Below, in pieces: positions 1,389 through 23,203 of a stretch of 48,892 nucleotides of DNA. The DNA is taken from assembly GCA_025454155.1 (NCBI GenBank), contig JALOOZ010000001.1, positions 1 to 48,892 on the forward strand. Direction: 5' to 3'. Positions within the stretch are counted from its first letter, which is position 1, and the number at the start of each line of letters is the position of its first letter. Under the pieces are notes generated by a model, which did no database searches, was not told the origin of the DNA, and worked only from the letters and a program-made list of their open reading frames with translations. This DNA is from Thermodesulfobacteriota bacterium (GTDB taxonomy: Bacteria > Desulfobacterota > Desulfomonilia > UBA1062). The position numbers were made by a program, and so were the translations under genes.

Positions 1389-2039
1389 ATGCCTCGAACA
1401 CCCCGGTCACAACGTGAGATCGATCTCGTAAAAAAGGAAATCCTCGACTCCGCCTTGGAGTTCATCCTAGCGGACGGCTTCCAGAATCTCAGCATGCGCA
1501 AGCTCGCCTCCAGGCTGGGCATGACCGCCACGACCATATACAATTACTTTTCAAACAAGGACGAGATAAACCTCATGATCCGCATGCGCGGCTCCGAGTT
1601 GCTCTACCAGCGATTTCTGAAGTGCTGTGATCAGCACACCGACCCCCTCTTGAAGATGCAAGCCATGATCCGTGCCTATTTCGATTTCGGCATCAGCTAC
1701 CCTAATTACTACGATATCCTGTTCAACCTGCACACTCCCAAATACCTCGACTACATAGGGACTGATCTGGAACCTATTGCTCGAACGGAAAAGGAGTCGT
1801 CTCTGCGGAACTATGAGATCGTTGCCAGGACTCTTGCGGAGGTCATGTGCATCCGGGGCGACGTGAGCCATGATCTTGTGAAAGACAGGACCATCCAGAT
1901 GTGGTGCGAAATCCACGGTACTATCTGCCTCCATAACAGTAACTTGCTGCGTGAAATTGATGACAATCCGGCGGAATTGACAGGTCGCATGATAGACGAC
2001 GTCATCGCTCGCCTCATGAGATTCGGAGACGAGCAGTAG
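1389..2039 (+). CDS. TetR/AcrR family transcriptional regulator
   Basis: N-terminal HTH: ILDSALEFILADGFQNLSMRKLASRLGMTATTIYNYFSNKDEI. Confidence 0.88.
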   Translation: MPRTPRSQREIDLVKKEILDSALEFILADGFQNLSMRKLASRLGMTATTIYNYFSNKDEINLMIRMRGSELLYQRFLKCCDQHTDPLLKMQAMIRAYFDFGISYPNYYDILFNLHTPKYLDYIGTDLEPIARTEKESSLRNYEIVARTLAEVMCIRGDVSHDLVKDRTIQMWCEIHGTICLHNSNLLREIDDNPAELTGRMIDDVIARLMRFGDEQ

Positions 2040-2104
2040 GAAGTCGACTCTGCGCCTCGGGAAATCCGTACCGGTATCATATGCTACCTGAAAGGAGGAC
2101 TGTC

Positions 2105-5100
2105 ATGCAGCAGCATGTGGCCGCACAGCACCAGACACCCGGGGGTGCCGTGCAGAAGAAGAGATCCACGAACTTTCTCGTGAACGTGCTTTTGCACGCC
2201 ATGGCCATGTTTTTCAACAGGCGCAGCTCGCTCAGGAAGTACCTTGCGAGCGACAATGGATGGCTCAATTTCACGGTGGGGATACGGACCGAGGCCGGTT
2301 CGGTCGAGAGCGCCATCTCATTTCAGAACGGGAAGGTCTCCGTCGCCCACCACATACCCGCCAACGCCGACGTCGTGGTGATCCTCGCATCCGACACAGC
2401 GCTCAAGAAGCTCCTCACCGCCCCGACCACCGAGCAAGTCTACATGCTGCTCAAGAGCGAGATGAGGACCGAAGGCAAACAGACATACCTGCTCATGTTC
2501 CTCTTCCTCGTCTCCGTTCTCCTCCACAATCAGCAGATAAAGGGCCTGGAGAAGGAACGTGCCCACTTCAGGAAGAGCGCCTTCAGCGAATGCCCGCAGC
2601 ATCGCCCCGAATTGAGCAGGGAACTGGCCGAACGCAGGGCGCAACGCATGGTGGCGGAGTCAGTGGACCCGGGCGTGAAATTCCTGGGGGATCCCTATCT
2701 GCCGCAGTTCACCCTCGAGGACTTCCCCCGCCTGAAAAAGTTCCTCGACCTCCATTTCGACACCAGGGCACAGGTCTGCATCGAGATGCCCAAACTCCTC
2801 ACCGAGTGGCACAAGAAGAACGGCTTCGACGCCAAGCCAGACGGCACGCCGTGGGTCCCGGAGCTCAGGCGGGGGTACGCCTTCAAGTACATCATGGAAA
2901 ACCGCAGACCTATCATCCGGAAGGACGACCTCGTGGCAGGCACCACGACCTCGAAAGAGGTCGGGGCCTTACCGTATGTCGATGCGGCAGGGACATACCT
3001 CTGGCCGGAGCTCTTCACCGTACCCCACCGGCTACTCTTCCCCTACGACATCACGGAGGAGGAGGCCTGGACCCTCCACCATGAGATCTTCCCCTACTGG
3101 GCGGATAAAAACTTCAGGGAACGCCTCCGCAGCAGGCACAATGACCCACTGGCACTGCGGATCGACGAGCGTTTCGCCGTATATTTCTCCTTCAAATCCT
3201 CCGCCTTCTCACACATCATTCCGGATTTCCCTCGAATCCTTCGTCTGGGAACACACGGCATAATCGAGGAGATCCGGGCCGACATGACACGGGACCCTGG
3301 CGATGCAGGCAGGAATGCTGCACGGGAGGCCATGATCGTCTCCCTCGAGGGGCTTGCAGCCTATTCCAAGAACCTCGCGAGGCAGGCGGCTGATGATGCG
3401 GCATCAGAGGCCGACCTGAAGCGCAGGATCGAGCTGGAGAACCTCTCAGGCGTGTGCACCCGGGTGGTGGAATACCCGGCGCGCACCCTCGACGAGGCGG
3501 TCAATGCAATCTGGATCTCCATGGTGGGCGCCCATATCGAGAACACCAACGCAGGGCTGTCCCTCGGGAGGCTGGACCAGTGGCTCCAGCCGTACTTCGA
3601 GGCCGACATGGCCAAGCTCGAAACAAACCAAGAACGTGAAGCATACATCAAACACGCCATCGAGCTCATCGGTTGCTTCTTCTTCCGCTGCACCGACCAC
3701 CTCCCCTGCATGCCCTACATAGCGACAATCTACTTCGGAGGGAGTTCCTCCGACCAGGCGATCACCCTGGGGGGCGTGAACCCGGATGGCGAGGACGCAG
3801 TGAACGACATGACCTATCTTTTTCTCAAGGTCACGGAGATGCTCTCGCTCCGCGACCCCAACATGAACGCACGCTACCACCCCGGCAAGAACAGCGACAC
3901 CTACCTCAAGCGCCTCTGCGAGGTGAATCTCACCACAGCCGCAACCCCGTCCATGCACAACGACGCAGTCATCATGGAGTCGCTCAGGCAATTCAACTAC
4001 GACGAGCGAGACCTGAACGACTGGGCTGCGGTTGGGTGTGTGGAGCCCACCATCGCCGGCAAGCACACCGGACATACCAACTTCCAGCTGATCAACCTGG
4101 TGGCGGCCCTGGAGATGGCCCTCAACAACGGGACCCACCCCCTCATGCGGTGGAAACTCGGACCCGACACCGGGGTAATCGAGAATGGCGATTTCAAGAG
4201 CTTCGAACAGTTCTATGAGGCCTTTCTCACCCAATTCACTTTTCTGATCGACCAGTCCATACAGCTCAACAACTGGTATGCTGCGGAGCACCAGTACGTG
4301 CGGCCCACACCGTACATCTCCGCCCTCATCGACGGATGCAGCCGCAACGGCCTGGACGCCACGAAGGGCGGCGCAAAATACAACAGCTCCGGCACCGCCA
4401 TCATCGGGCTGGCAGACGTTACCGATTCGCTCATGGTCATCAAGAAGCTGGTCTTCGACGAAAAGAAGGTTCCTTTCGCCCACCTCAAGCGGGCCGTGGA
4501 TACCGATTTTCGGAATGACCCGGCACTCCATGCCATGGTCACCAAGAAGGTGCCCTTCTTCGGCTCCGGCAGCGACGAGGCGGTGGCCATGGCCAACCGC
4601 ATCACCAAGTTCGCCCACGACTACTACACCCCGATTCCGCACTATCGCGGCGGGAAGTACACGGTGGGCTTCTGGTCCATGTCCCAGCATGTCGCCTTCG
4701 GCACGCTTACCGGTGCGCTGCCGTCCGGTAGGCGGGCAGGCCAACCCTTCACCCCCGGCCTAACCCCGGAGCCGAACGCATCGAGAAGCCTCCTGGACAA
4801 TATGCGCGACGTGGCGCGCCTCGATCCGCACAACATCACCAACAACCTGGCCTTTAATGTAAAGATCGTTCCTTCCCCCCATGATACCCGGGAGAAGGCG
4901 GTGCAGGATATGTTCTCCTACGTGAAGACCTACTTCACCCTCGGCGGCATGCAGATGCAGATGAACGTGGTGACCTCTGACACGCTGCGGGACGCCATGG
5001 CCTACCCGGACAGCTACCGCAACCTGCTGGTCCGGATCTCGGGCTACAACGCCTACTTCGTAACCCTTCACAGAGACCTGCAGCTCGAGCTCATCCACCG

Positions 5101-5125
5101 GGCCGAGTACGGCATCGAACGGTGA
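2105..5125 (+). CDS. Glycyl radical enzyme (GRE1) with N-terminal SCP2-like domain
   Basis: Active-site AVGCVEP, C-terminal glycyl loop VRISGYNAYF; N-terminal ~130 aa (NGWLNFTVGIRTEAG...ADVVVILASDTALKKLLTAPTTEQVYMLLKSEMRTEG) resembles an SCP2 sterol carrier domain. Start placed at MQQHVAAQ after AAAGGAGG. Confidence 0.88.
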   Translation: MQQHVAAQHQTPGGAVQKKRSTNFLVNVLLHAMAMFFNRRSSLRKYLASDNGWLNFTVGIRTEAGSVESAISFQNGKVSVAHHIPANADVVVILASDTALKKLLTAPTTEQVYMLLKSEMRTEGKQTYLLMFLFLVSVLLHNQQIKGLEKERAHFRKSAFSECPQHRPELSRELAERRAQRMVAESVDPGVKFLGDPYLPQFTLEDFPRLKKFLDLHFDTRAQVCIEMPKLLTEWHKKNGFDAKPDGTPWVPELRRGYAFKYIMENRRPIIRKDDLVAGTTTSKEVGALPYVDAAGTYLWPELFTVPHRLLFPYDITEEEAWTLHHEIFPYWADKNFRERLRSRHNDPLALRIDERFAVYFSFKSSAFSHIIPDFPRILRLGTHGIIEEIRADMTRDPGDAGRNAAREAMIVSLEGLAAYSKNLARQAADDAASEADLKRRIELENLSGVCTRVVEYPARTLDEAVNAIWISMVGAHIENTNAGLSLGRLDQWLQPYFEADMAKLETNQEREAYIKHAIELIGCFFFRCTDHLPCMPYIATIYFGGSSSDQAITLGGVNPDGEDAVNDMTYLFLKVTEMLSLRDPNMNARYHPGKNSDTYLKRLCEVNLTTAATPSMHNDAVIMESLRQFNYDERDLNDWAAVGCVEPTIAGKHTGHTNFQLINLVAALEMALNNGTHPLMRWKLGPDTGVIENGDFKSFEQFYEAFLTQFTFLIDQSIQLNNWYAAEHQYVRPTPYISALIDGCSRNGLDATKGGAKYNSSGTAIIGLADVTDSLMVIKKLVFDEKKVPFAHLKRAVDTDFRNDPALHAMVTKKVPFFGSGSDEAVAMANRITKFAHDYYTPIPHYRGGKYTVGFWSMSQHVAFGTLTGALPSGRRAGQPFTPGLTPEPNASRSLLDNMRDVARLDPHNITNNLAFNVKIVPSPHDTREKAVQDMFSYVKTYFTLGGMQMQMNVVTSDTLRDAMAYPDSYRNLLVRISGYNAYFVTLHRDLQLELIHRAEYGIER

Positions 5126-5144
5126 AGGGGAAATTCGAGGAACC

Positions 5145-6083
5145 ATGAAGAGCACCCCGGAAAAAGTTCAGCGCTCACCTCTCATCCTGGACATCAAGGG
5201 CAACTCCCTGGATGACGGCCCGGGCATCCGAAGCGTGGTCTTTTTCAAAGGCTGTCCTCTTTCATGCGTATGGTGCCATAACCCGGAAAGCAAGGGCTCC
5301 GGAGAGGAAATCTCATATGATGCGAAAGAGTGCATCGGCTGTGATACATGTCTCTCCACCTGTCCCAGGGGGGCCCTGTCGCGCGTGAACTCCCTCTATG
5401 TCGACCGGAACAGGTGCGATCTCTGCTTCGCCTGCACCGGGTTCTGCCCATCAGGTGCCCTGAGCAGGGTGGGCCGGGAGATGAGCATAGAGGAGATCGC
5501 TGCTAAGGTGATCGTGGACAAGCCCTTTTTTGAAACCTCAGGAGGGGGCGTGACACTCTCCGGAGGCGAACCGACCCTCTTCATGGACTTCGTCTCGCAG
5601 CTGCTTTCCCTCCTGAAAACCCACGGGATAGGCACCCTCCTCGAAACATGCGGCCAATTCGATCTCGATCGTTTCATGGACAGGTTGTATCCATATCTCG
5701 ATGCCATCTACTATGACATCAAGCTCATGGACTCGAAGGCTCATGAGCACTACTGCGGTGTGTCCAATGCGCGGATCCTCGACAACTTCACCAGACTGCA
5801 TGCCGCGGCTGCGGCCGACGGCAGGACGCTCCTCCCGCGGATTCCACTTATCCCTGACATCACCGATTCCACGGAAAACATTACCGGAATCGCCGGTTTC
5901 CTTGGTTGCCTCGGCGTCAAGAAAGCCGCGCTGTTGGCCTATAATCCCCTCTGGCACGAGAAGAGCGCCAAGATAGGAGCCGACGACCCCTGTCGCGACA
6001 ACCATCTGATGAGCTCCTGGCCGGAGTGCGAACGCCTGGAGCGCGCCAGGGAGATCTTCATGCAAGCGGGGATTGAGCCATGA
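5145..6083 (+). CDS. Glycyl radical enzyme activating protein (AE1), radical SAM with ferredoxin-type insert
   Basis: DDGPGIRSVVFFKGCPLSCVWCHNPES, two CxxCxxC...CP clusters, TSGGGVTLSGGEPT; 19 nt after GRE1. Confidence 0.92.
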   Translation: MKSTPEKVQRSPLILDIKGNSLDDGPGIRSVVFFKGCPLSCVWCHNPESKGSGEEISYDAKECIGCDTCLSTCPRGALSRVNSLYVDRNRCDLCFACTGFCPSGALSRVGREMSIEEIAAKVIVDKPFFETSGGGVTLSGGEPTLFMDFVSQLLSLLKTHGIGTLLETCGQFDLDRFMDRLYPYLDAIYYDIKLMDSKAHEHYCGVSNARILDNFTRLHAAAAADGRTLLPRIPLIPDITDSTENITGIAGFLGCLGVKKAALLAYNPLWHEKSAKIGADDPCRDNHLMSSWPECERLERAREIFMQAGIEP

Positions 6084-6108
6084 GGGACTGGTCTTGGGAG
6101 GATTCACC

Positions 6109-7356
6109 ATGAAGGGACTCATGTTCAATTACAGCCTCCCCAGGATCGCCCTGAAAAAGGTCGGACTGGGCGGAGATTTCTTCCTGGTCAAATATAGCGA
6201 AACATGGCCGGTTCCGAAGATCTTTCACCCGAACCAGGTTCTGGTGAAAACCCGATTGGCAGGCATCTGCGCATCAGACCTGCATCAGATGACGGTCTCG
6301 ATGTCTCTGTATCCCAGCATCATGGCATCTCCCGTGAACCCCGTTCCCATGGGCCATGAAGTCGTGGGAACCATAGCTGAAGTCGGGTCAGCCGTCAGCG
6401 GGCTCCGGCCGGGGGATCGGGTTGTATATAATCCCGTGGCCCGGTGCTCCTTCTTCGGATTCAGGCCCTGCCCCAGCTGCCTGCAAGGTAACTACCAGCA
6501 CTGCTTCTGCCTTCTAGGCATTGGGGACGGGACCGATCGCGAGCGTGAGTGCGGCGGCAGGAGGAGGTTCGGGGGGTTCGGTGGAGGCGGGTTCAGCGAG
6601 AACCTGCTGGGGTATGAGAAACAATTCCACCTGGTTCCCGATCATGTGCCGGACGATGTGGCGGTGCTCGCCGAGCCCTTCACCATTGCCCTGCATGCGG
6701 TGGCACGTCATATGCCCCGGCATGATGACACCGTTGTCGTGGTGGGTGCGGGGATCATAGGTCTCCTTACCATAAAGGCGCTGAGGGCACTGGGCTCCCG
6801 ATGTCGGATCATCTCGCTGGCACGCTATCCCATGCAGGTGGAAATGGCCATCAAGCTCGGCGCCACCGAGGTCATATCGGAACGCGACATGAAAAAGCTC
6901 TATGACAGGGTTGCCGGAGCGACTGGGGGATCACTCTTTGCCCCGCTTCTCAGCAAGCAGGTGCTCTACGGCAACAAGGGCCCCGACATAATCTACGACA
7001 GCGTGGCCTCGGAATCTTCGGTGGAAGACGACCTCCGCCTTGTCAGGAGCAACGGTAAGGTCGTGCTCACCGGCCTGGATTTCCATATCACCCGAAAGGT
7101 GGACTGGTCGCTGGTGGTATGGAAAGAGATCGAGGTCACCGGAACCCTCTTTTCAGGAAAAGAGCCCATCGAAGAAAATGAGTTGGACGCCTTTGACATG
7201 GCACTAAAGCTCATGGCGAGCGATCCCTGTGGTTTCTCAGGCCTTGTCACCAACACCTTCCCGATTGAAAGATACCGGGAGGCCGTACAGTGCTTCCGTT
7301 CGAAAAAGGCGACCAACGCCATAAAAGTGGTGCTGGATTTCAGGGGGGTAAGTTAA
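6109..7356 (+). CDS. Zinc-type medium-chain dehydrogenase/reductase
   Basis: CASDLHQM, MGHEVVGTIAEVG, GDRVVYNP, CPSC...C structural zinc cysteines, VVVVGAGIIGLLTIKALRALG Rossmann motif. Confidence 0.82.
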   Translation: MKGLMFNYSLPRIALKKVGLGGDFFLVKYSETWPVPKIFHPNQVLVKTRLAGICASDLHQMTVSMSLYPSIMASPVNPVPMGHEVVGTIAEVGSAVSGLRPGDRVVYNPVARCSFFGFRPCPSCLQGNYQHCFCLLGIGDGTDRERECGGRRRFGGFGGGGFSENLLGYEKQFHLVPDHVPDDVAVLAEPFTIALHAVARHMPRHDDTVVVVGAGIIGLLTIKALRALGSRCRIISLARYPMQVEMAIKLGATEVISERDMKKLYDRVAGATGGSLFAPLLSKQVLYGNKGPDIIYDSVASESSVEDDLRLVRSNGKVVLTGLDFHITRKVDWSLVVWKEIEVTGTLFSGKEPIEENELDAFDMALKLMASDPCGFSGLVTNTFPIERYREAVQCFRSKKATNAIKVVLDFRGVS

Positions 7357-7383
7357 CACATCGCTCCGTCTTAAGGATGTGAT

Positions 7384-8850
7384 TCACCTCCGCCTCCCGC
7401 CGAAGATAGAACCGAGGACACCGCGGATGATCTGCCTGCCGACCTGGCTGCCGATGGCATGGGCAGCGCTCTTGGCCATGGCCGAGAAGAGGTCTGTGCC
7501 CTGGGAATGCCCCTTCGGGGATGCCTGCTTCTCCGCACGTACCTCCTCCTGTTCCTTCTCCGCCTGCTCGGCCCTGACCTTGAGCATCTCAAAGGCCGAT
7601 TCGCGGTCAATGGCCTTTTCGTAGTGGCCGTATATCACCGATCCCCTGATGATCTCCAGCCGCTCCTGGGCGCTCAGCGGGGTCAGCCGGCTGTGAGGGG
7701 GGCAGATGAAGGCCCGCTGCACCACCGTGGGGGCCCCTTTCTCGTCGAGCATCGACACCAGGGCCTCGCCGACCTCCAGCTCGGTTATCACCCTGGCCAC
7801 GTCCAGCCCCTCCCCTGAGCGGAATGTTTCCGCCGCTGCCTTCACGCTCTTCTGGTCTCTGGGAGTGAAGGCCCTCAGGGCATGCTGGACCCTGTTCCCC
7901 AGCTGTCCGAGGACGGTCTCCGGCAGGTCGATGGGATTCTGGGTGATGAAATAGATGCCCACACCCTTGGAGCGGATGAGGCGTACAACCTGCTCGATCT
8001 TCTCCACCAGTGCCTTGGGGGCATCGTCGAAGAGGAGATGTGCCTCATCGAAGAAGAAGACCAGCCTGGGCTTTTCAGGGTCGCCCACCTCCGGGAGCTG
8101 CTCGAAGAGCTCGGAGAGCATCCAGAGCAGAAAGGTGGCGTACAGCTTCGGAGACTGCATAAGCCTGTCGGCGGCGAGGATGTTGATGACCCCCTGCGCC
8201 TTCGTGTCGGCCTGCATGAGATCGTGGAGATTCAGGGCCGGCTCCCCGAAGAACTTTTCGCCGCCCTGATCCTCGAGGGTCAGCAGGCTGCGCTGGATGG
8301 CGCCGATGCTGGCCGATGAGATGTTCCCGTACTGCGTCTTGAACTGTTCCGCCTTATCTCCGACAAACTGGAGCATGGAGCGCAGATCCTTCAGGTCGAG
8401 CAGGAGGAGCCCATTGTCATCGGCGATCCTGAACACGATGGAGAGGACCCCGCTCTGGATCTCGTTGAGCATGAGGATGCGGCCCAGAAGCACCGGGCCC
8501 ATCTCTGAAACTGTGGTGCGGACCGGATGGCCCTGCTCCCCGAAGACGTCCCAGAAGACCACCGGATAACCTTCGAAGCCGAATCCCTCGAGGCCCAGCT
8601 GCCTGATGCGATCGTTGACCTTGGGATTATCACCGCCGGGCAGGGGAAGGCCGGAGAGGTCGCCCTTCACGTCCGCCATGAAGACGGGCACCCCGAAGGC
8701 ACTGAACTGCTCGGCCAGTGTCCTCAGCGTGATCGTCTTTCCGGTGCCAGTTGCACCCGCGATGAGGCCGTGGCGGTTGGCCATTCTCGGGATGATGGCG
8801 ATGTCGGACTGTGCCTTTGCAATGACAAGAGAACTCTGGTGTGCGCCCAT
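7384..8850 (-). CDS. HerA/YjgR-like (DUF853 family) ATPase
   Basis: MGAHQSSLVIAKAQSDIAIIPRMANRHGLIAGATGTGKTITLRTLAEQFS...VFMADVKGDLSG; Walker A GATGTGKT. ORF-track N-terminus trimmed. Confidence 0.85.
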   Translation of the reverse strand: MGAHQSSLVIAKAQSDIAIIPRMANRHGLIAGATGTGKTITLRTLAEQFSAFGVPVFMADVKGDLSGLPLPGGDNPKVNDRIRQLGLEGFGFEGYPVVFWDVFGEQGHPVRTTVSEMGPVLLGRILMLNEIQSGVLSIVFRIADDNGLLLLDLKDLRSMLQFVGDKAEQFKTQYGNISSASIGAIQRSLLTLEDQGGEKFFGEPALNLHDLMQADTKAQGVINILAADRLMQSPKLYATFLLWMLSELFEQLPEVGDPEKPRLVFFFDEAHLLFDDAPKALVEKIEQVVRLIRSKGVGIYFITQNPIDLPETVLGQLGNRVQHALRAFTPRDQKSVKAAAETFRSGEGLDVARVITELEVGEALVSMLDEKGAPTVVQRAFICPPHSRLTPLSAQERLEIIRGSVIYGHYEKAIDRESAFEMLKVRAEQAEKEQEEVRAEKQASPKGHSQGTDLFSAMAKSAAHAIGSQVGRQIIRGVLGSIFGGRRR

Positions 8851-8861
8851 GGTCACTCCTT

Positions 8862-9771: not shown

Positions 9772-9792
9772 CCAGCCACCTGCGGAGGTGCC

Positions 9793-10536
9793 ATGAAGGA
9801 CATCCTGAAGCCGCTGAAATCGGACAGCCTGGTCGAGGTGTTCATCTCCCGGTTTGAAGACCTCATCCTCACCGGCAGGATAGCCATCGGCCAGAAACTC
9901 CCCTCGGAGCGCGAACTGGCCCTGCAGCTGGGCGTGAGCAGACCCGTGGTGCACGAGGGCCTCATCGACCTCGCCGCCAAAGGCCTGGTCACCATGAAAC
10001 CGAGGGTCGGCACCGTCGTGAACGACTACCGCAAAGGGGGTTCCCTCGCCATCCTGAACTCCATCATCAATTACCAGCAGGGAGGGCTCGACCGGAACCT
10101 GCTGGACAGTCTCCTCGCCACAAGGCAGCTCGTGGAAACCGAAACCTCCCGTCTCGCAGCAAGGAACCGCACCGAAGAACACATGGAGGAGTTCCACGGC
10201 ATCGTCGATGCCGAGGAGACGGCGAACCCCAGGGACCTGAAGAGAATCACCGGGCTCGACTTCAGCTTCCATCACCTGATGGGCATGGCATCGGGCAACC
10301 TCATCTACCCGCTGCTCATCAATTCGTTCAAGCCGGTTTACATGAACTTCACCACCCTCTTCTTCTCGGATGCGGACATGGTGCCGGAGACGATCGTATT
10401 CCACCGGCGGCTGGTCAAGGCCATTGAAGACAAGGACTCAGACAGGGCAGGAGCCATCATGCACGAGACGCTCACCCACGGCGAGCGTCACCTCAGGAGG
10501 ATCCTCACCCAGGCAGTGAAGGAGGTCAGGCAATGA
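9793..10536 (+). CDS. GntR/FadR family transcriptional regulator
   Basis: GRIAIGQKLPSERELALQLGVSRPVVHEGLIDLAAKGLVTMKPRVGTVV plus FCD-like effector domain. Confidence 0.9.
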   Translation: MKDILKPLKSDSLVEVFISRFEDLILTGRIAIGQKLPSERELALQLGVSRPVVHEGLIDLAAKGLVTMKPRVGTVVNDYRKGGSLAILNSIINYQQGGLDRNLLDSLLATRQLVETETSRLAARNRTEEHMEEFHGIVDAEETANPRDLKRITGLDFSFHHLMGMASGNLIYPLLINSFKPVYMNFTTLFFSDADMVPETIVFHRRLVKAIEDKDSDRAGAIMHETLTHGERHLRRILTQAVKEVRQ

Positions 10537-13049: not shown

Positions 13050-13081
13050 GAAGATCGCTCTCAAGGGAGAAGAACCTGACA

Positions 13082-13205: not shown

Positions 13206-14219
13206 ATGAGAACAGAGAACAACAACACCGGCACCATCCTCCGCATCCAGCGCATGTCCACCGAGGACGGGCCGGGCATCAGGAGCACGGTCTTTTTCAA
13301 GGGCTGCCCGTTGTCCTGTGTGTGGTGCCATAACCCGGAGAGCATCTCCCCGAAGTTCCAGGTTCACTGGGTGGGCTCACGGTGCATAGGGTGCCGGAGC
13401 TGCCTCGATGCGTGCCCGGAAAGGGCCCTGACCGCAGGCAAGAAAGGCATCGCCATCGACCGGGAGAGATGCACGGGCTGCCTGAAGTGCACCGATGTAT
13501 GCCCTTCAACGGCCCTGGAGGCCTACGGGCAGGCCTACAGTCTGGATGCCCTCGTGAGCGAGGTGCTCAAGGACCGGGTCTACTTCGATAAGTCCGGCGG
13601 CGGGGTGACTCTTTCCGGCGGAGAGCCCACCATGCAGGCGGACTTCAGCCTGGAGCTGCTGAAGGCCCTGAAGGGCACGGGTGTGCACACGGCCCTCGAC
13701 ACCTGCGGCCAGTGCGGCTGGGACACCCTGGAGTCGCTCCTGCCCCATGCGGACATGGTGCTTTACGACATCAAGGAGATCGACCCGGAGCGGCACCGTG
13801 CCTTTACCGGCGTGACGAACGCAAAGGTGCTCGAGAACCTCCTCAGGCTGGGCGGGTTCATGAGGGATCGTGGCTGCCCCCGGGAGCTCTGGGTGCGCAC
13901 GCCCCTCATCCCGGGATGCACGGCATCCTCCGAAAACCTCCGCGGCATCGGCGCCTTCCTCAAGGGGAACCTGGGTGCCCTGGTGGACAGGTGGGAGCTG
14001 TGCAGCTTCAACAACCTGTGCCTGAACAAGTACGATGGTCTGGGCTTGGACTGGCGCTTCAGGGGGAACGGCCTGCTCGGCAGGGATGAGGCGGAGCACC
14101 TGGCTGTCGTTGCCCGGGGCTCGGGAGTGGATGCGAGGATAGTTCACCTCAGCGGTCCGCTGAGGCTGGAGGCGGCGGAGAAGGCCGCCCTGAGCGTGAT
14201 CAAGGGAGGAAGTGTATGA
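13206..14219 (+). CDS. Glycyl radical enzyme activating protein (AE2)
   Basis: EDGPGIRSTVFFKGCPLSCVWCHNPES; CIGCRSCLDACP and CTGCLKCTDVCP clusters; SGGGVTLSGGEPT. Confidence 0.92.
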   Translation: MRTENNNTGTILRIQRMSTEDGPGIRSTVFFKGCPLSCVWCHNPESISPKFQVHWVGSRCIGCRSCLDACPERALTAGKKGIAIDRERCTGCLKCTDVCPSTALEAYGQAYSLDALVSEVLKDRVYFDKSGGGVTLSGGEPTMQADFSLELLKALKGTGVHTALDTCGQCGWDTLESLLPHADMVLYDIKEIDPERHRAFTGVTNAKVLENLLRLGGFMRDRGCPRELWVRTPLIPGCTASSENLRGIGAFLKGNLGALVDRWELCSFNNLCLNKYDGLGLDWRFRGNGLLGRDEAEHLAVVARGSGVDARIVHLSGPLRLEAAEKAALSVIKGGSV

Positions 14220-15079
14220 AAAGGACCTCTGCGAGCTTTGATACTCATGATATGAAGCAGTTCGAGCCCGAGGCCAAGGTGGGTCTCATCGCCACCGTCA
14301 ATCCGGACGGCCTGCCCCACATCACCCTGATCACGGCCCTGCAGGCAAAAACCCCTTCGCAGCTCATCTGGGGCCAGTTTTCAGAGGGGCTCAGCAAGAA
14401 GCACGTGCGCGCCAATCCCAAGACCGGCTTCGCCATCATGACCATGGACCGCAGCCTGTGGCGGGGCAAGGCGGTGTGGACCCACACGGAGACCCACGGC
14501 GAGGACCATGAGATGTTCAACAACAAACCCATGTTCCGCTACAACGCCTATACAGGGCTGCACACCATCCATTACATGGACCTGAAAGAAACCTGGGGCA
14601 GGGAAGGCCTGCCCCTGCTCAGGATCGTCCTGGCCTCGATCCTTACCGGGTTCGCCAAGCCGGCGGCACGCCCGGACACAAGAGTCCGTATATTGAAGCC
14701 CTGGGCCGAGAGCCTGTTCAACAGGCTCGACACGGTCAAGTTCCTTTCCCTCGTGGGCAGCGACGGCTTTCCTGTCATTGTCCCCCTCATCCAGTGCCAG
14801 GCCTCAGGCAGCACGCGGCTCGTTTTCTCGCCCTTCGCATACGGCGAAGACCTCAAGGAACTGAAGCAGGGCATGAGCGTGGCGGTGTTCGGCCTGACCC
14901 TGCAGATGGAGGACGTGCTCGTGCGGGGGGTGTTCGGCGGGTTTGGAAAAGCCCGGGGGATCACGCTCGGACACATGGACATCGACTGGGTGTACAACTC
15001 CATGCCGCCCCTGCACGGCCAGATCTATCCGGAAACTGAACTGAGACCGGTTGCGCATTTTTCAAGGAGTGAAGCATGA
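14216..15079 (+). CDS. Pyridoxamine 5'-phosphate oxidase-like (FMN split-barrel) protein, apparently two repeats
   Basis: AKVGLIATVNPDGLPHITLITAL...QLIWGQFSEGLSKKHVRANPKTGFAIM and a second half VKFLSLVGSDGFPVIVPLIQC...LVFSPFAYGEDLKELKQGMSVAVF; ATGA overlap with AE2. Confidence 0.65.
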   Translation: MKRTSASFDTHDMKQFEPEAKVGLIATVNPDGLPHITLITALQAKTPSQLIWGQFSEGLSKKHVRANPKTGFAIMTMDRSLWRGKAVWTHTETHGEDHEMFNNKPMFRYNAYTGLHTIHYMDLKETWGREGLPLLRIVLASILTGFAKPAARPDTRVRILKPWAESLFNRLDTVKFLSLVGSDGFPVIVPLIQCQASGSTRLVFSPFAYGEDLKELKQGMSVAVFGLTLQMEDVLVRGVFGGFGKARGITLGHMDIDWVYNSMPPLHGQIYPETELRPVAHFSRSEA

Positions 15080-15300
15080 ATCGAAGCAAGGGTGCCGATA
15101 TCGACCGACTATCATACAGGCCCAGGGGTGGATACTTCGAGCCGAAAAGGGACAGTTTCGGGAGGGCTTCGTTCTGCATGCCCGGGGTGTGCTCTCTGGC
15201 CGCCCTCTCCATGGCGGCCGAAGACGAGCATTGGAAGATCTCCAGACTGACACCCAGGCACGAGCGGGATGCTCCTCGAGACAAGGTCATGATCACATGA
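15076..15300 (+). CDS. Small hypothetical protein (74 aa), possibly translationally coupled
   Basis: ATG overlaps the upstream TGA (ATGA); sits between the split-barrel gene and GRE3; no recognised domain. Confidence 0.35.
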   Translation: MNRSKGADIDRLSYRPRGGYFEPKRDSFGRASFCMPGVCSLAALSMAAEDEHWKISRLTPRHERDAPRDKVMIT

Positions 15301-15328
15301 GCGGGATTGCTCCAGGGAGGATTCAGCA

Positions 15329-17710
15329 ATGAGGGCACAGACAGAAAGGATCGAACGCATCCGCGAGGCGCGGCAGACTCCGGAGCGCTTCAGGCGCATA
15401 AAGGAAGCCCTTTTCGCCCAGAAGGTTCACCTGTGCACGGAGCGGGCGATTCTCATCACCGAGTTCTTCAAGGAACACGATAACCCGGACGAGCCCATGG
15501 TGATCCGAAAGGCCAAGGCCCTGCGCTACCTGCTCAGGAGAAAGTCGGTGAAAATCTTCGCGGACGAGCTCATTGCAGGTAACGTGGGCGGTCACCGCAA
15601 ATCATGCATCATCCAGCCCGAGCTTGCCGGAACGGTCATGAGTGAAGAGCTCCTGTGGATGGACAGGAGGAAGACGAATCCCTATCCCATCTCCTGGGCC
15701 GACCGGATGCGACTCCTCTTCAAGGTCAATCTCTACTGGTACTTCCGGAACATGGGCGCGCGTGCATTCAAGTGGTACAGCCCCAGCCTGTCGCGCTTCC
15801 TGCTGGAGCAGCTTTCGGCCACTTACTATCTCATCAACGAGAGCGGCGGCATCGGCCATTTCCTGCCCGGTTACGATAGGATGATCGCACTGGGAATCAG
15901 GGGTTACATGGAGGTCCTGGATGAGCCGAAGAGCGACCTCCAGGCCGCGGCGCTCATTGTCTGTGAAGGCCTCGCCGACTATGCAAACAGGCTCTCAGAG
16001 GAGGCCTCACGCCTCGCCGTCCGTGAAGGAGACCCGGCACGGAAGCAAGAGCTCCGGGAGATCGCCCGCATCTGCGCCAAGGTGCCCCTGGAGCCTGCCG
16101 AGACGCTGCACGAGGCCCTCCAGTCACTGTGGCTCACGCACATGGCGGTTTGTCTGGAGGGATTGAACTCCGCCATATCGTTCGGCCGGATCGACCAGTA
16201 CCTCTACCCCTTCTACAGGGCCGACATCGACTCAGGCCGGCTGACCCGCGAGCAGGCCCTGGATCTGCTGCTGTGCTTCTCGGCCAAGACCACCGAGCAC
16301 ATGTTCCTGCTTTCCAGCAGGGTCAGCGAGTATCACGGGGGCTATCTGGTGGCCCAGGCCGCCACGGTGGGCGGTGTGGACGGCGAGGGCAGGGACGCGG
16401 TGAACGATCTCACCTGGCTGTTCCTCGACGTCATGGAGCTCGCAGGGCTGCGCGATCCGAACTACATGGCCCGGATCAGCACGTCATCTCCGGAGGAGTA
16501 TGTGCGCCGAGCCGTGGAGGTGGCCTGCAAGGGCAACGCGGTGCCCGGCCTGTTCAACGACGAGGCGACCATCGCTGCTCTCATGGCCCACGGCTACCCG
16601 GAGGGTGAGGCACGGGACTACGGCGTGGTCGGCTGTGTGGAACCCACTTTGCCGGGAAGGAGCTTCTGCTCCACCGATGCCGCTCTCTTCAACCTGCCCA
16701 TGTGCCTGGTCCTCGCCCTGAACCGGGGCAGGAAACCTGGCTCCAGACTGCGAATCGGGGCAAGGACGCCCGATCCATCGGGCTTCAGGTCCATGGATGA
16801 TGTCATCGAAGCCTTCAGAATCCAGGTGGACCACATGGTAAGACGTCTGATCAAGGACATCCAGGTCATGGAGAAGGCCAACCGCGACTACCACCCCACT
16901 CCTTTTTCCTCTATGCTGGTGAGGGGGTGCCTGGAGAGCGGCAACGACGTGACCGCGGGAGGTGCCCTGTACAACTCGAGCGGCATCCAGGGCGTGGGCG
17001 TGGCAGACGTGGCCGACTCCCTTGCGGCCATGGACGAGGTGGTGTTCAGGCGCAGGTCGCACAGCCTGAACGAGGTGGTCGAGGCCATGAAGGTGAATTT
17101 CAAGGGGCTTGGGAAGCTCAGGGCCGAGCTGCTCGCCGCCCCCAAGTTCGGCAATGACCACGCACTCCCCGACCGCCATGCAGACCTGGTGGCGCACATC
17201 TTCCACGATGCGCTGGCAAAACACCGCAGCACCCGGGGAGGCCCCTACATCTCAGGGTTCTACTCGTCCACCACCCACGTGGGCTTCGGCCACAGGACCG
17301 GCGCCCTGCCGAGCGGCAGGATGGCGGGCGAGCCCTTTGCGGCAAGCATGGGGTGCTGCAACGGGAGCGACAGGCAGGGTCCCACGGCCCTGCTCAACTC
17401 CGTGGCTGCAGTGGACTCGAAGCTCTCCCCGAACGGCTATGCCCTGAACCTGCGCTTCGATGTGCCGTCGCTGAAGGGGGACCGTGCCGTTGACACCATG
17501 ACCGCGCTGGCAAAGGGCTTCTTCTCCCAGGGCGGCATGGAAATGCAGCTCAACGTGCTCGATCCAGAGGTGCTGGAGGATGCCAGGGCCAACCCGGGCA
17601 GGCACCCTGGCATCGTGGTGCGTGTGGCCGGCTACTGTGCTTACTTCGTCGATCTGCCGGACACGGTGAAGGACGAGATCATCAAACGGACCAGGATCTC
17701 ACTGGAGTAG
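15329..17710 (+). CDS. Glycyl radical enzyme (GRE3)
   Basis: VVGCVEPTLPGRSFCSTDAALFNLP active site; glycyl loop VRVAGYCAYF; SGGIGHFLPGYDRMIALG substrate-loop region. Confidence 0.9.
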   Translation: MRAQTERIERIREARQTPERFRRIKEALFAQKVHLCTERAILITEFFKEHDNPDEPMVIRKAKALRYLLRRKSVKIFADELIAGNVGGHRKSCIIQPELAGTVMSEELLWMDRRKTNPYPISWADRMRLLFKVNLYWYFRNMGARAFKWYSPSLSRFLLEQLSATYYLINESGGIGHFLPGYDRMIALGIRGYMEVLDEPKSDLQAAALIVCEGLADYANRLSEEASRLAVREGDPARKQELREIARICAKVPLEPAETLHEALQSLWLTHMAVCLEGLNSAISFGRIDQYLYPFYRADIDSGRLTREQALDLLLCFSAKTTEHMFLLSSRVSEYHGGYLVAQAATVGGVDGEGRDAVNDLTWLFLDVMELAGLRDPNYMARISTSSPEEYVRRAVEVACKGNAVPGLFNDEATIAALMAHGYPEGEARDYGVVGCVEPTLPGRSFCSTDAALFNLPMCLVLALNRGRKPGSRLRIGARTPDPSGFRSMDDVIEAFRIQVDHMVRRLIKDIQVMEKANRDYHPTPFSSMLVRGCLESGNDVTAGGALYNSSGIQGVGVADVADSLAAMDEVVFRRRSHSLNEVVEAMKVNFKGLGKLRAELLAAPKFGNDHALPDRHADLVAHIFHDALAKHRSTRGGPYISGFYSSTTHVGFGHRTGALPSGRMAGEPFAASMGCCNGSDRQGPTALLNSVAAVDSKLSPNGYALNLRFDVPSLKGDRAVDTMTALAKGFFSQGGMEMQLNVLDPEVLEDARANPGRHPGIVVRVAGYCAYFVDLPDTVKDEIIKRTRISLE

Positions 17711-17726
17711 GTTCCGCACCGACGGT

Positions 17727-18737
17727 TCACCCGAGATGCTCACGGCAGACCGACGAGAAACGCCGGAGATCCTTGTAGTCCATGACCGTGGACATGGGCA
17801 GGTTGGTCTCTTCGATGCCCGCCTCCCTGATGGCTGCCACCGGGTTCAGGCCGCCGATGAGGATGACGCCCATCTTGTTCACGTCCACCGGTGCCTGGCA
17901 GACGGACTCCCCCATCTTGCCCATGGTGATCACCGGTGTCATGCCCACGTCCTTCAGATCCCTGATGACCTCCTCGACTCCGTCCCTGCACACCCCGGCG
18001 ATCTCGGAGAGGTTGGCCAGGATCTTGCCTTCGCCGTGCTGCAGCACTCCCCGAACCGCGGTCATGCGGGCGCTGATGAAGGCCTCAGAGGGGTCAAGGG
18101 AAGTGCCGGAGTAATGGATGAGCTCCACGAACCGCATGGGCTTGTGTTCGCTCATCTGGAGGATGCCGCCGAACTTGGATTCCACCGGTATGCCACGCTT
18201 GAGGAGCATGCCGGTGAGCACGATGCTGCACACCGTTGCAAAGCCGATGCATCCGTCGGGCACGTGCACGTCGCCCAGGAAAGCCCCTTCAGGGGCTACC
18301 GCCACCAGCTCGCTGACGCAGCACCCCTTGTCGAAGGCCGTCTTCATACCCTTGAGGGCATCCCTGAAATGCTGCTGGGGAAAGAACGAGACGTTGATGG
18401 GGACCATGCCCCTGCCCGCACGTGCATCGAAGGTGGTTTTGTAGGAGAGGATCTCCATGCGCGAGATGCAGTAGCCAACCTTTTCGTGGACCCTGGCGTT
18501 CCTGAGCTCCTCGATGCCCTTTGCCGTAATGACCCTGCCGTCGCGGCGGCCCACGAACCTGGTCAGTTCCTTGGTGTCCATGAACTGGAGGTGGTACCGC
18601 ACGGCCCGTTCGCTCAGGCTCACCCCGTAGTCCTTGAGCCTGCGTGCGATGATCCGCGCCCCCACCGAACCCTGCGCCTGGTTCAGGATGCGCAATATCA
18701 GGATGCTCTTCCGTTCCATCTCGTCGTAGGTGAACAT
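17727..18737 (-). CDS. NrpR-like transcriptional regulator (N-terminal winged helix + DUF128/NrpR domain)
   Basis: ERKSILILRILNQAQGSVGARIIARRLKDYGVSLSERAVRYHLQFMDTKELTRFVGRRDGRVITAKGIEEL followed by an NrpR-type effector region (DGCIGFATVCSIVLTGMLLKRGIPVESKFGGILQM; GMTPVITMGKMGESVCQAPVDVNKMGVILIGGLNPVAAIREAGIE). Confidence 0.75.
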   Translation of the reverse strand: MFTYDEMERKSILILRILNQAQGSVGARIIARRLKDYGVSLSERAVRYHLQFMDTKELTRFVGRRDGRVITAKGIEELRNARVHEKVGYCISRMEILSYKTTFDARAGRGMVPINVSFFPQQHFRDALKGMKTAFDKGCCVSELVAVAPEGAFLGDVHVPDGCIGFATVCSIVLTGMLLKRGIPVESKFGGILQMSEHKPMRFVELIHYSGTSLDPSEAFISARMTAVRGVLQHGEGKILANLSEIAGVCRDGVEEVIRDLKDVGMTPVITMGKMGESVCQAPVDVNKMGVILIGGLNPVAAIREAGIEETNLPMSTVMDYKDLRRFSSVCREHLG

Positions 18738-18757
18738 GGCTGGACTCCTTGGCCATA

Positions 18758-18771
18758 GGAAACCGATTTCC
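18758..18771. promoter_or_regulatory. Candidate NrpR-type operator GGAA-N6-TTCC
   Basis: GGAAACCGATTTCC, 20 bp upstream of the NrpR-like start, in the divergent promoter with yggS. Confidence 0.55.
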
Positions 18772-18869
18772 GATGATGGTTACACGCTTGCACAGGGCCT
18801 GTCAACGGTGATCCCCTGGGGATGCGATTGCTGATTGACATCGATATCCTCAGGGCTTAGGGGAAAACC

Positions 18870-19532
18870 ATGGGGCAGATCAGGGACAATGCAGCCAGGC
18901 TCCTCGCAGGGATCCCCCGGGGCATAACGGTGCTGGCCGCGGCCAAGGCGAGGTATGCATCAGAGATCCTGGAGGTCATCGATGCAGGCATCACCGACAT
19001 CGGCGAGAATTATTTCCAGGAATCGCGCGCCATGATCGAGGCCATCGGCGATAAGGCCACCTGGCACTTCATCGGCCATATCCAGAAAAACAAGGTCAAA
19101 CACATCGTGCCGCTCTTCGACATGATCCAGACCGTGGACAGCCTGGAGCTCGCGGCCATGATCGATCAGCATGCGGCAAAGCACGGCAAGGTCATGCCCG
19201 TGCTCGTCGAGGTGAACAGCGGCCGCGAAGAGAACAAGCACGGCGCCATGCCCGGGGCGGTGGCAGAGCTGATCATGCAGATGGCTGTGCTGCCGAACCT
19301 CCGCGTGAAGGGACTCATGACCATGGGGCCTTTCCTGGACGACTTCGAGGGGCTCAGGCCGTTCTTCCGGCAGACCAGGGCTCTGTTCGAGGAGATCGGT
19401 TCACAGGATATCCCGAACGTACGGATGGAGATCCTCTCCATGGGCATGAGCGACTCCTTTCCCATAGCCATCGAGGAAGGGGCCACCATGGTACGCATCG
19501 GTACCATGATCTTCGGTCAACGGCCATACTGA
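18870..19532 (+). CDS. yggS: YggS family pyridoxal phosphate homeostasis protein
   Basis: GITVLAAAKARYASEILEVIDAGITDIGENYFQE...TWHFIGHIQKNKVKHI...LSMGMSDSFPIAIEEGATMVRIGTMIFG. Confidence 0.92.
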   Translation: MGQIRDNAARLLAGIPRGITVLAAAKARYASEILEVIDAGITDIGENYFQESRAMIEAIGDKATWHFIGHIQKNKVKHIVPLFDMIQTVDSLELAAMIDQHAAKHGKVMPVLVEVNSGREENKHGAMPGAVAELIMQMAVLPNLRVKGLMTMGPFLDDFEGLRPFFRQTRALFEEIGSQDIPNVRMEILSMGMSDSFPIAIEEGATMVRIGTMIFGQRPY

Positions 19533-19689
19533 GGATTCAGGGCCTATTCATTCCATCCATGCCCCTAGCACTCTCATATGGATCTGATGCAAGACTCATG
19601 ATATAATTAGGATAATCGGATTGCGCAGCGGTGGTCCCCGCATCAGGAAATCACGGGCGAAGGAGTTCCACCAGAAGGAGGTTTTTCCC

Positions 19690-22164
19690 ATGGCTGGATT
19701 ACCGCGTTTCTCGGCATCCTTGACATCCGCGGCGGTGGCCCCTGTGGAAGGGTTTACCCCCCCGACTCCCCGCATCGCCGCCATCAGGGCGAAGCTGCTG
19801 TCCACGCCGTACTCGATCTGTCTGGAACGGCCGAAGCTCATGGAGGAATTCTGGAGTTCCAGGGAGGGTCGCCGGAGCGCCAAGCTTGAGCATCCCCTGG
19901 TCCATCGAGCCCTGACCCTGCAGTACATATTCTCTCACCGCAAGCCCCGCATTTACGATGATGAGATCATCATCGGCAACATGACCTCCAAGCGCATTGC
20001 AGCCAACTACTACATCGAGGGCGGATCGATCAACATCCTGGAGGATTTCGCCCGGCTGGGGAAACGGACCATTCCCCTGAAACTGACCATCCAGGAAACC
20101 GCTGGAGTCCTTCACCTCGGGCTCAAGAACGCGTTCAAGAGCGTGGGCGCAAAGGCGCTCCTCAAGCCGGGGCGTCTTTCCTATTTTCTGGATTTCTTCA
20201 GGGCCAAACGCCACTTCGTGACGGAGGAGGCGGGCATCGGCCATCAGGTCGGAAACTACTGGATGGTCGTACATGAGGGTTTGCGCGGCCCGTATGGGGA
20301 GGCCAAACAGAGGCTGGAGGAGGGGAGACTTGCAGACGGATCCCGCCTTGATGCCGATCAGAGGGCCTTCTTCAGCTCAGTGCTGATCACCATAGACGGC
20401 ATCAGAAAGATGGCGGAAAACCTTGCCGCCGAGGCCGAACATCTCGCGCAGATGAAGGGGGAGTCTGAACAGCGAAGGGCCGAACTCCTGGCAGCGGCCG
20501 CCGCCTGCCGACGGGTTCCCTTTGAACCCGCCCGGACCTATCTCGAGGGTTTGCAGGCAACCTGGCTCATCCACATGGCCCTGAACCTGGAGGACTTCGA
20601 ACAGGGGCTCTCCTTCGGCCGGATGGACCAGATCCTGCTGCCCCTCTATCGGAGCGATGTTGAACTGGGCCGGCTGAACACCGGGCAGGCCACGGAGATG
20701 ACGGCCTGTTTCTGCCTGAAGACCTGCGAGACCATGCCGCTCTATTCCCAGCGGGTGGATCAGTTCTTCAGCGGCAACGGGGTCGCCCAGGCCTTTACCC
20801 TGGGGGGCACGGACGAAAAGGGGAATGACCTGACCAACGAGCTTTCCGGCCTTATCCTGGACGCCTATGCCCAGGTCCTGACCCGTGAGCCGGCTGTGCA
20901 TGTCCGCATCCATCCCGCCACACCCGAATGGTTTTTCCAGAAAAGCGTGGAGCTTCTCCAGATGGGCACCAGCAGGCCCTCCTTCTTCGGGGACACGGCC
21001 GTAGTCAGAGCCCTCCAGGAAGCTGGCATGACCAGGGAGCACGCCCGGGACTACGCCGTCATCGGCTGCGTGGAGATGGCAAGCCAGGGACGCACGTACA
21101 ACTCTTCGGACGCCGCGCTCTTCAACCTACCTCTCTGCCTGGAGCTGGCACTCAATGAAGGCAGGCGCTTCCACGGAAAGGCCCGGATCGAGGGCCGCCG
21201 CCGCTTCGGCGCCCCCACACCGCCGGTCTCCACGATGAAAACCTTTGACGACGTACTCGATGCTTTCCGGGCCCAGGTCCGCCACGGGGTCGATGACATG
21301 GTGAAGGTGATCGGATGGCTGGAGGAGGTCTACCGGACAATCCGGCCGACACCGGTGAATTCGATCCTCACCGAGGGCTGCCTCGAGACGGGCAAGGATG
21401 TGACCTGGGGGGGCGGCCTTTATGATTACACCTCCATCCAGGCGGCAGGGCTCGCCGATGCGGGCGACTCCCTCTACGCCCTGAAGAGGATCATCTTTGA
21501 TCAGAAGCGTTTCAGCCTGGACGAGTTTGTCGGGATCCTGCAGGACAACTTCCGCGGCAGGGAGGACCTGAGGGTTGAACTGGCCTCGAAGCTGCCACGG
21601 TACGGCAACGGCGATCCGGACGTGGACCATATGACCCAGCTCGCGGCCGACGCCTTTTCCGACGCCCTTTCAGCCCACAAGAACTCGCGCGGAGGGCGGT
21701 ATGTTCCCGGGTTCTACTCCATGACCTGCCACATCGGCTTCGGCCGCGTGACCGGGGCCCTTCCCAACGGGCGGCCGGCCGGCCGGCGGCTCTCCAACGG
21801 TCTTGCCCCGGTGGATGGGTGCGACCGAATGGGTCCCACGGCCGTTCTGCGTTCAGCAGCCTCCCTGGACAGCAGGAAGTGGATGAACTGCCATGCCTTG
21901 AACCTGAAGTTCGACAGGCAGATAGTCCAGGGCAAGACTGGACGGAAGGCCCTGGTGAGCCTCTTGAAGAATTATTTCGCCCTCGGGGGGATGCAGGTTC
22001 AGGTGAACATACTCGATACCGAGACGCTCAAGGCTGCGAAGAGGGACCCCGCATCATACCCCGGTATCGTGGTCCGTGTGGCCGGTTATTGTGCCTATTT
22101 CAATGACCTCCAGCCCGCCGTGCAGGACGAGATCATCGAGAGGACAGCCCATGGTATCACCTGA
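19690..22164 (+). CDS. Glycyl radical enzyme (GRE4)
   Basis: VIGCVEMASQGRTYNSSDAALFNLP; glycyl loop VRVAGYCAYF; start at MAGLPRFS after AGAAGGAGG. Confidence 0.9.
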   Translation: MAGLPRFSASLTSAAVAPVEGFTPPTPRIAAIRAKLLSTPYSICLERPKLMEEFWSSREGRRSAKLEHPLVHRALTLQYIFSHRKPRIYDDEIIIGNMTSKRIAANYYIEGGSINILEDFARLGKRTIPLKLTIQETAGVLHLGLKNAFKSVGAKALLKPGRLSYFLDFFRAKRHFVTEEAGIGHQVGNYWMVVHEGLRGPYGEAKQRLEEGRLADGSRLDADQRAFFSSVLITIDGIRKMAENLAAEAEHLAQMKGESEQRRAELLAAAAACRRVPFEPARTYLEGLQATWLIHMALNLEDFEQGLSFGRMDQILLPLYRSDVELGRLNTGQATEMTACFCLKTCETMPLYSQRVDQFFSGNGVAQAFTLGGTDEKGNDLTNELSGLILDAYAQVLTREPAVHVRIHPATPEWFFQKSVELLQMGTSRPSFFGDTAVVRALQEAGMTREHARDYAVIGCVEMASQGRTYNSSDAALFNLPLCLELALNEGRRFHGKARIEGRRRFGAPTPPVSTMKTFDDVLDAFRAQVRHGVDDMVKVIGWLEEVYRTIRPTPVNSILTEGCLETGKDVTWGGGLYDYTSIQAAGLADAGDSLYALKRIIFDQKRFSLDEFVGILQDNFRGREDLRVELASKLPRYGNGDPDVDHMTQLAADAFSDALSAHKNSRGGRYVPGFYSMTCHIGFGRVTGALPNGRPAGRRLSNGLAPVDGCDRMGPTAVLRSAASLDSRKWMNCHALNLKFDRQIVQGKTGRKALVSLLKNYFALGGMQVQVNILDTETLKAAKRDPASYPGIVVRVAGYCAYFNDLQPAVQDEIIERTAHGIT

Positions 22165-23203
22165 GCCTCTCGTCTTCTCCCTGCAGCATTTCTGCCTTCA
22201 CGACGGCCCCGGGATACGGAGCCTGGTCTTTTTCAAAGGGTGCCCCTTGCGGTGTCCCTGGTGCCAGAACGTCGAATCCTGGAAGGCGGGCTCAGAGATT
22301 GCATTCAAACCCGCGCTCTGCATCAACTGCGGTACGTGTGTAAGGAAATGCCCGGAACACGCCCTGGCCGAAGTCGGTACGAGGGATACAACAAGGTGCA
22401 GGGGGTGTTTCACCTGTATCGACAGCTGCCCATCGGGTGCCATGACTCTCTTCGGCGTCCAACGGTCTCCCGAAGATGTTGTGGAGGAGCTGCGCCCCGA
22501 GTTCTCGCTCTTCACGACCTCCGGAGGCGGGGTTACCTTCACCGGCGGGGAACCAACCCTGTATCCGGACTTTTCCGCCAGGCTGGCAAGGTCTCTGCGC
22601 ACCGAAGGCATTCACATCGCCATGGAGACCTGTGGATTCTTCGACCTCAAGAGGCTGCGTCCTCTCCTCCGGGAGCTTCGTCTCGTACTCTTCGACATCA
22701 AGATCTATGACAGAGAGCAGCACCGGCAGATGTGCGGTGCCGACAACACGGTGATCAAAAAGAACCTGAAGGCCCTTGTCGAGGCCGGAAGCGGGCAGGG
22801 GGCGCCTGCTGTCTGGCCGCGCCTTCCACTGGTGCCGGGTCTGACCGACGGGCAGGATAACATCAAAGGCTGGGCCGGCTTTCTTCGTTCACTGGGGATC
22901 TCCTTCCTGACCATTGTACCCTATCACCCCATGGGAGCCAGCAAGCGCCGGTGGCTGGGGCTCCCGGCCGGCCCTGAACTGCGAGTGCCTACAGATGCCG
23001 AGATTCAGACCGCCGGTGGGTTGTTCTCAGCCGAAGGAATCATGACCTATAAGCCCGGCGAGGAACCTTTTCCGGAGGATTCCATCGGTCCGGCACAGGG
23101 ACTGCCCCGCGATCTTCCCGGGGCCGCACATGACCGGCGGGTCGAACACCGGGGCCTGCCTACCGATGGTCACGGGCCAACAGGGCTGAATACCCCTCGA
23201 TGA
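22151..23203 (+). CDS. Glycyl radical enzyme activating protein (AE4)
   Basis: HDGPGIRSLVFFKGCPLRCPWCQNVES, two ferredoxin-like Cys clusters, SGGGVTFTGGEPT; overlaps the GRE4 stop by 14 nt. Confidence 0.9.
   Translation: MVSPEPLVFSLQHFCLHDGPGIRSLVFFKGCPLRCPWCQNVESWKAGSEIAFKPALCINCGTCVRKCPEHALAEVGTRDTTRCRGCFTCIDSCPSGAMTLFGVQRSPEDVVEELRPEFSLFTTSGGGVTFTGGEPTLYPDFSARLARSLRTEGIHIAMETCGFFDLKRLRPLLRELRLVLFDIKIYDREQHRQMCGADNTVIKKNLKALVEAGSGQGAPAVWPRLPLVPGLTDGQDNIKGWAGFLRSLGISFLTIVPYHPMGASKRRWLGLPAGPELRVPTDAEIQTAGGLFSAEGIMTYKPGEEPFPEDSIGPAQGLPRDLPGAAHDRRVEHRGLPTDGHGPTGLNTPR

Follow-up and report, generated by a model that had tools for sequence, protein, structure and literature searches.

A composite island of glycyl radical enzymes in a Thermodesulfobacteriota bacterium contains an enzyme joined to a predicted SCP2-type domain

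Four glycyl radical enzymes and three activases in 20 kb

The stretch of DNA analysed, referred to as the window, comprises 48,892 nucleotides from a Thermodesulfobacteriota bacterium (assembly GCA_025454155.1, contig JALOOZ010000001.1, positions 1 to 48,892). Between positions 1389 and 23203, this anaerobic bacterium has an island in which four glycyl radical enzymes (GREs), which are oxygen-sensitive, are encoded intact together with three activases within 20 kb, and the first of these enzymes, GRE1, carries an additional N-terminal domain of about 200 residues with a predicted SCP2 fold. The genes are those for GRE1 (2081..5125, 1014 residues), GRE2 (10533..13049, 838 residues), GRE3 (15329..17710, 793 residues), and GRE4 (19690..22164, 824 residues), all on the plus strand, as are all other island genes given below except that for an NrpR-like protein. 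PF02901 and PF01228 were both far above the cut-off in all four. The active-site motifs are GCVEP in GRE1 and GRE3, GCLEN in GRE2, and GCVEM in GRE4, and the glycyl loop is GYNAYF in GRE1 and GRE2 and GYCAYF in GRE3 and GRE4. As judged from these letters, the different active-site loops may indicate four different substrates. The genome of 2.76 Mb yielded six PF01228 matches, and the clustering of GREs is not due to chance because four of the six are located in the island.

A cognate radical SAM activase follows directly after GRE1 (activase 1, 5145..6083, 265 bits with TIGR02494), GRE2 (activase 2, 13206..14219, 312 bits), and GRE4 (activase 3, 22151..23203, 268 bits). All three contain the ferredoxin insert and exceed the TIGR02494 cut-off of 174 bits. 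The open reading frame (ORF) of activase 3 opens at 22076, with the ATG at 22151 as the likely start. A preliminary description of this DNA had reported the four GREs with these motifs and loops and the three activases, and all of them are intact where it placed them; the start of GRE1, however, had been set at 2105 instead of 2081, and the N-terminal SCP2 domain had been overlooked. Each GRE had also been thought to possess its own partner genes, which does not apply to GRE3, as the window contains no separate activase for it.

The island is a composite of a core and two cassettes

The core is formed by the GRE2 operon with GRE3 behind it. The operon contains the gene for a GntR/FadR-type regulator (9793..10536; PF07840, 66.8 bits, cut-off 23.6), GRE2, activase 2, and the gene for a PNPOx-like FMN split-barrel protein (14216..15079; PF01243, 29.0 bits, cut-off 28.1), and it is conserved. 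In the host family, nearly every member carries the GRE2, activase, and PNPOx genes in a single copy, and their order is kept in many other families of Desulfobacterota, in Spirochaetota, and in one metagenome-assembled genome (MAG) of Chloroflexota, with GRE2 identities down to 48-51%. GRE3 follows the operon in eight related genomes. The best NCBIfam matches of the regulator were FadR, below the cut-off; a FadR-like protein as the regulator of GRE2 would be in line with lipid metabolism. The predicted structure of GRE2 reached a pLDDT of 65 from a shallow alignment. Across families and phyla, the third place in the operon was consistently taken by the gene for the PNPOx-like protein.

Upstream of this core, a cassette of 6.1 kb (1283..7396, delimited by blastn against locus L106) is located between hemW and herA. 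It contains the genes for a TetR-family regulator (1389..2039; PF00440, 44.7 bits), GRE1, activase 1, and a zinc-dependent alcohol dehydrogenase (6073..7356; PF08240 and PF00107), for which the ATG at 6109 is the likelier start. In the sister genome G004, hemW and herA are 98 bp apart. The downstream cassette with GRE4 and activase 3 (19517..23322, delimited by blastn against locus L109) is located between yggS and a hydrolase gene; it is missing there in G002, which has another gene instead. GRE4 shows a sporadic distribution. The scattered distribution favours insertion of cassettes as the probable origin.

Between GRE3 and GRE4 are the genes for an NrpR-like regulator (17727..18737, minus strand; PF01995, 264 bits) and YggS (18870..19532; TIGR00044, 175.6 bits, cut-off 106). 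The position of the NrpR gene is conserved, and in several relatives it adjoins a glutamate dehydrogenase-like gene. Both genes had been counted among the regulators or regulator-like genes of the GREs, but they belong to the chromosomal backbone and are not GRE regulators.

GRE1 is joined to a predicted SCP2-type domain

GRE1 consists of an SCP2 domain at about residues 28-222 and a GRE core at about residues 217-1014. The PDB matches of a profile of the N-terminal domain were SCP2 proteins only, and Pfam SCP2 matches were found in 33 of 73 GRE1 homologues, the best with an E value of 2e-5. The AlphaFold2 model of the domain had a pLDDT of 81, and when it was used in a Foldseek search, the first 46 matches were all of the SCP2 type, led by UbiJ-SCP2 (4.9e-7, probability 1.00). 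At the level of the predicted structure, the SCP2 fold of the GRE1 N terminus is thus confirmed. UbiJ and UbiT, the SCP2 proteins of ubiquinone synthesis, are carriers for hydrophobic substrates; they share the fold with the GRE1 N terminus but are not fused to a radical enzyme.

The fusion, referred to as SCP2-GRE, was present at 86 distinct loci, with named hosts among Desulfobacterota, Spirochaetota, Actinomycetota, Chloroflexota, and Myxococcota. One of them is the cultured Desulfoluna limicola ASN36 (locus L192), in which an activase and a short-chain dehydrogenase/reductase (SDR) gene adjoin the SCP2-GRE gene. Four further loci contain a split form, with SCP2 as a separate gene adjoining the GRE gene and the activase gene next to it. 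One of these is on a chromosome of 6,500,104 bp, which is probably that of Desulfomonile tiedjei, from the same class as the host. The fused and split forms were sister clades in the tree (support 100/100). In a literature search that did not cover subscription papers, we found no paper tying GREs to SCP2, and the joining of both, for which we found no earlier report, is the main novelty of the island.

Relation to characterised glycyl radical enzymes

All four island GREs appear to be uncharacterised. They missed the NCBIfam equivalog cut-offs for CutC, HypD, HpsG/HpfG, IAD, HPAD, and PFL (best score 475 bits compared to 1050), and the solved structures they matched were all distant. In a maximum-likelihood tree of 57 rows, the reference rows of which were copied from PDB alignments and are in part truncated, they formed separate clades, none with glycerol dehydratase (GD), propanediol dehydratase (PD), CutC, HypD, or IslA. 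GRE3 and GRE4 were sisters and GRE2 was on a very long branch; the long branches make the deep joins unsure. Benzylsuccinate synthase (BSS), HPAD, and PFL were compared with the island GREs by score only. NCBIfam, PDB, and tree thus gave no high identity to a characterised GRE, which agrees with the divergence noticed at first. Likewise, as had been stated, no microcompartment shell gene or X-succinate synthase small subunit was seen among the window proteins of the Pfam scan, with some window ORFs outside this set. The active-site Cys and the C-terminal Gly loop were found in 70 of 70 homologues of GRE1 and 18 of 18 of GRE2 and were seen directly in GRE3 and GRE4.

Among solved structures, the B12-independent glycerol and 1,2-propanediol dehydratases (1r8w, 5i2a; 360 bits) were closest to the GRE1 core; the scores with MAS (210 bits) and BSS (180 bits) were far lower. 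These dehydratases share with GRE1 the GC-x-E motif, an equivalent of His164, the glycyl loop, and an activase with ferredoxin insert. In contrast to them, GRE1 possesses SCP2, lacks equivalents of GD residues H281, S282, and D447, and scored far below the family. The best PDB match of GRE2, GRE3, and GRE4 was PFL2 of Archaeoglobus fulgidus (2f3o). In the tree, its row was on the side of GRE1, GRE3, and GRE4, on a long branch; unlike GRE1 it has no SCP2, and it has no shown operon relation. The type II choline trimethylamine-lyase CutC (9f3w, 1150 residues) has a long N-terminal extension as does GRE1, but in phmmer this extension matched GRE-core sequence and not SCP2. In pairs of threonyl radical enzymes, two radical enzymes are encoded beside one activase (PMC11528403). 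GRE2 and GRE3 resemble these pairs as two enzymes with one activase; unlike them, both island enzymes retain the glycine, and they are not near neighbours in the tree.

Active site and gene neighbourhood of GRE1

Residues Cys653, Glu655, and Gly988 were invariant in 70 GRE1 homologues and His378 was nearly so. H281, S282, and D447 of GD, which bind the diol, are replaced in GRE1 by small residues.

TetR and activase genes are the constant partners of SCP2-GRE, and a TetR gene was at most 3 genes away in 35 of 85 loci. Genes for alcohol, aldehyde, or keto oxidoreductases were five times commoner within 3 genes of SCP2-GRE (31 of 445) than at a distance of 5-8 genes (4 of 286; p = 2e-4). An alcohol dehydrogenase homologue follows GRE1 at loci L159 and L163.

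A link to glycerol or fatty acids was considered and not kept: genes for GlpK, MlaE, and an acyl-CoA ligase are near GRE1 in one genus and in G011, which, with no enrichment, is a hint only. In a Spirochaete (L172), GRE1 is followed by an FGGY kinase gene and a GlpD-like gene, and this kinase resembles xylulokinase more closely than glycerol kinase. Assignment of partner SDRs as KDSR or OleD was dropped, with scores below all cut-offs.

GRE1 and GRE2 occur together in two phyla

Among 395 genomes of Desulfobacterota, 19 outside the host family contained SCP2-GRE, and 9 of these also contained GRE2 (1.3 expected, p = 4e-7); at the genus level, the figure was 7 of 12 (p = 4e-6). Among 218 genomes of Spirochaetota, GRE2 was present in 18 of 21 SCP2-GRE genomes (2.8 expected, p = 4e-16). 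A small number of split SCP2 genes are included in these counts, and the p values are not fully corrected for shared ancestry on a full species tree. The association persisted among Spirochaetota with at least two GREs (p = 2e-5), and in four genomes of this phylum the only two PF01228 matches were accompanied by the presence of both SCP2-GRE and GRE2. GRE2 was also found in 21 of 30 SCP2-GRE genomes picked across phyla. Both genes are adjacent in a Chloroflexota MAG (L181), whereas the distance between them is about 17 kb in G003 and about 15 kb in G124. Of the initial suggestion that the island consists of several linked modules rather than one pathway, the joined units stand; a simple independence of them does not, because GRE1 and GRE2 co-occur in two phyla.

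Possible function of GRE1 and alternative explanations

The characterised GREs known to us either use small molecules as substrates or attach fumarate to hydrocarbons. The computed results are the gene content, the SCP2 fold, the existence of a fused and a split form, the lack of the cassettes in sister genomes, the co-occurrence with GRE2, and the enrichment of redox partners; from the SCP2 domain we infer a hydrophobic substrate, from the relatedness of the GRE1 core an eliminase-type chemistry, and from the redox gene partners a carbonyl or alcohol product. The explanation we prefer, tentatively and at somewhat under an even chance, is that the SCP2 domain delivers a hydrophobic substrate to a dehydratase- or lyase-type GRE1, the carbonyl product of which goes to a redox partner in a process shared with GRE2. 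Activase 1 would place the radical on Gly988, from where it would move to Cys653, and the SCP2 domain would bind and present the lipid-like substrate. The thiyl radical of Cys653 may then abstract a hydrogen adjacent to a leaving group (C-O or similar), assisted by Glu655 and His378, and elimination would yield an aldehyde or ketone. This product may be converted by the neighbouring alcohol dehydrogenase, or in other genomes by an SDR or an aldehyde:ferredoxin oxidoreductase, and GRE2 would contribute to the overall process as well. Our confidence is moderate for the mechanism and low for any given substrate.

Evaluation of this explanation needs to consider several results that weigh against it. 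The N terminus of GRE1 itself scored 16.3 bits with Pfam SCP2 (PF02036; E = 0.012), below the gathering cut-off of 21.3, and replacement of the three diol-holding residues means that simple diol dehydration is not implied. A redox gene within 3 genes was present in 26 of 85 SCP2-GRE loci, so that most are without one, and acyl-CoA or fatty-acid genes and glycerol genes near GRE1 were not enriched compared to genes further out. Some SCP2-GRE genomes, including that of D. limicola, are without GRE2, and shared ancestry or a shared habitat may contribute to the co-occurrence. The latter would be the whole explanation if the island were a permissive chromosomal region with four independent catabolic GREs for unrelated substrates. 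This alternative, which is not probable but deserves to be taken seriously, agrees with the four separate clades, the two cassettes as separate units, the sporadic GRE4, and the genomes without GRE2; it does not explain that the association of GRE1 with GRE2 holds among GRE-rich genomes and that both are adjacent in the Chloroflexota MAG.

The SCP2 domain may alternatively be a structural or regulatory element, for instance, for dimer contact or docking to a membrane or the activase, with a small and polar substrate of GRE1. For some SCP2-fold domains in other enzymes no lipid ligand is known, and glycerol and propanediol dehydratases are the closest relatives of the core, but the existence of SCP2 as a separate protein beside the GRE and the small residues in place of the diol-binding ones make this rather improbable. 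By analogy to UbiJ in quinone synthesis, GRE1 might instead make or modify a lipid or isoprenoid. UbiJ-SCP2 as the best fold match would agree, as would some partner SDRs with HpnA, OleD, and sterol enzymes as their closest matches, none of which reached the cut-off; the patchy distribution, up to 3 paralogues per genome, local TetR control, and the cassette form fit catabolism better, and a biosynthetic role seems slightly more doubtful still. A fumarate-adding X-succinate synthase with SCP2 as hydrocarbon carrier would account for hydrophobic substrates, relatives in hydrocarbon-rich settings, and loci in Smithella MAGs. It is very improbable, as small subunits were beside GRE1 in no examined locus, the BSS and MAS scores are far below those of the dehydratases, and the Glu of the GC-x-E motif is as in eliminases. 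Papers on a limonenylsuccinate synthase (PMC12583861) and a benzene cluster (PMC13101534) concern enzymes other than the island GREs.

Within the preferred explanation of GRE1 as a lyase with a lipid-presenting domain, a far-reaching version can be formulated, which is speculative and rather unlikely as a whole. SCP2-GRE would be the first glycyl radical lyase that acts on lipids. Together with GRE2, its activase, and the PNPOx-like protein, it would form a pathway of two radical enzymes that cleaves, without oxygen, a C-O bond in ether lipids, diol lipids, or the like, an anaerobic counterpart to alkylglycerol monooxygenase.

How refractory lipids are broken down without oxygen in sediments, aquifers, and digesters is poorly explained, and a widespread clade of fused and split lipid-carrier GREs suggests radical chemistry on lipids in these habitats. 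The recurrent pairing of SCP2-GRE with the very divergent GRE2 provides a testable prediction.

Other arrangements and neighbouring genes

Three single ORFs of 1112-1182 residues in Spirochaetota (L241:296-3640, L242:5130-8468, L243:5024-8572) combine a radical SAM activase with a complete GRE (PF04055, PF02901, and PF01228); no report of such fusions was found in a literature search. ORFs of similar size with PF01228 are present in G490, G431, G587, and G519, and all seven genomes also possess SCP2-GRE and GRE2. A rumen Clostridia MAG (L189:7809-18898) contains five tandem GREs with one activase; each of the five has GCNQ at the active site, with the Glu replaced. Another Spirochaetota genome (G576:C64, L249) has 20 PF01228 matches, many of them in tandem on one contig. 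Downstream of the island, an ArsP-like permease gene adjoins clpB at 26912-28090, and the region 33319-44207 contains genes for a 2-oxoacid:ferredoxin oxidoreductase, an AMP-binding CoA ligase, an aldehyde:ferredoxin oxidoreductase, and a class II aldolase.

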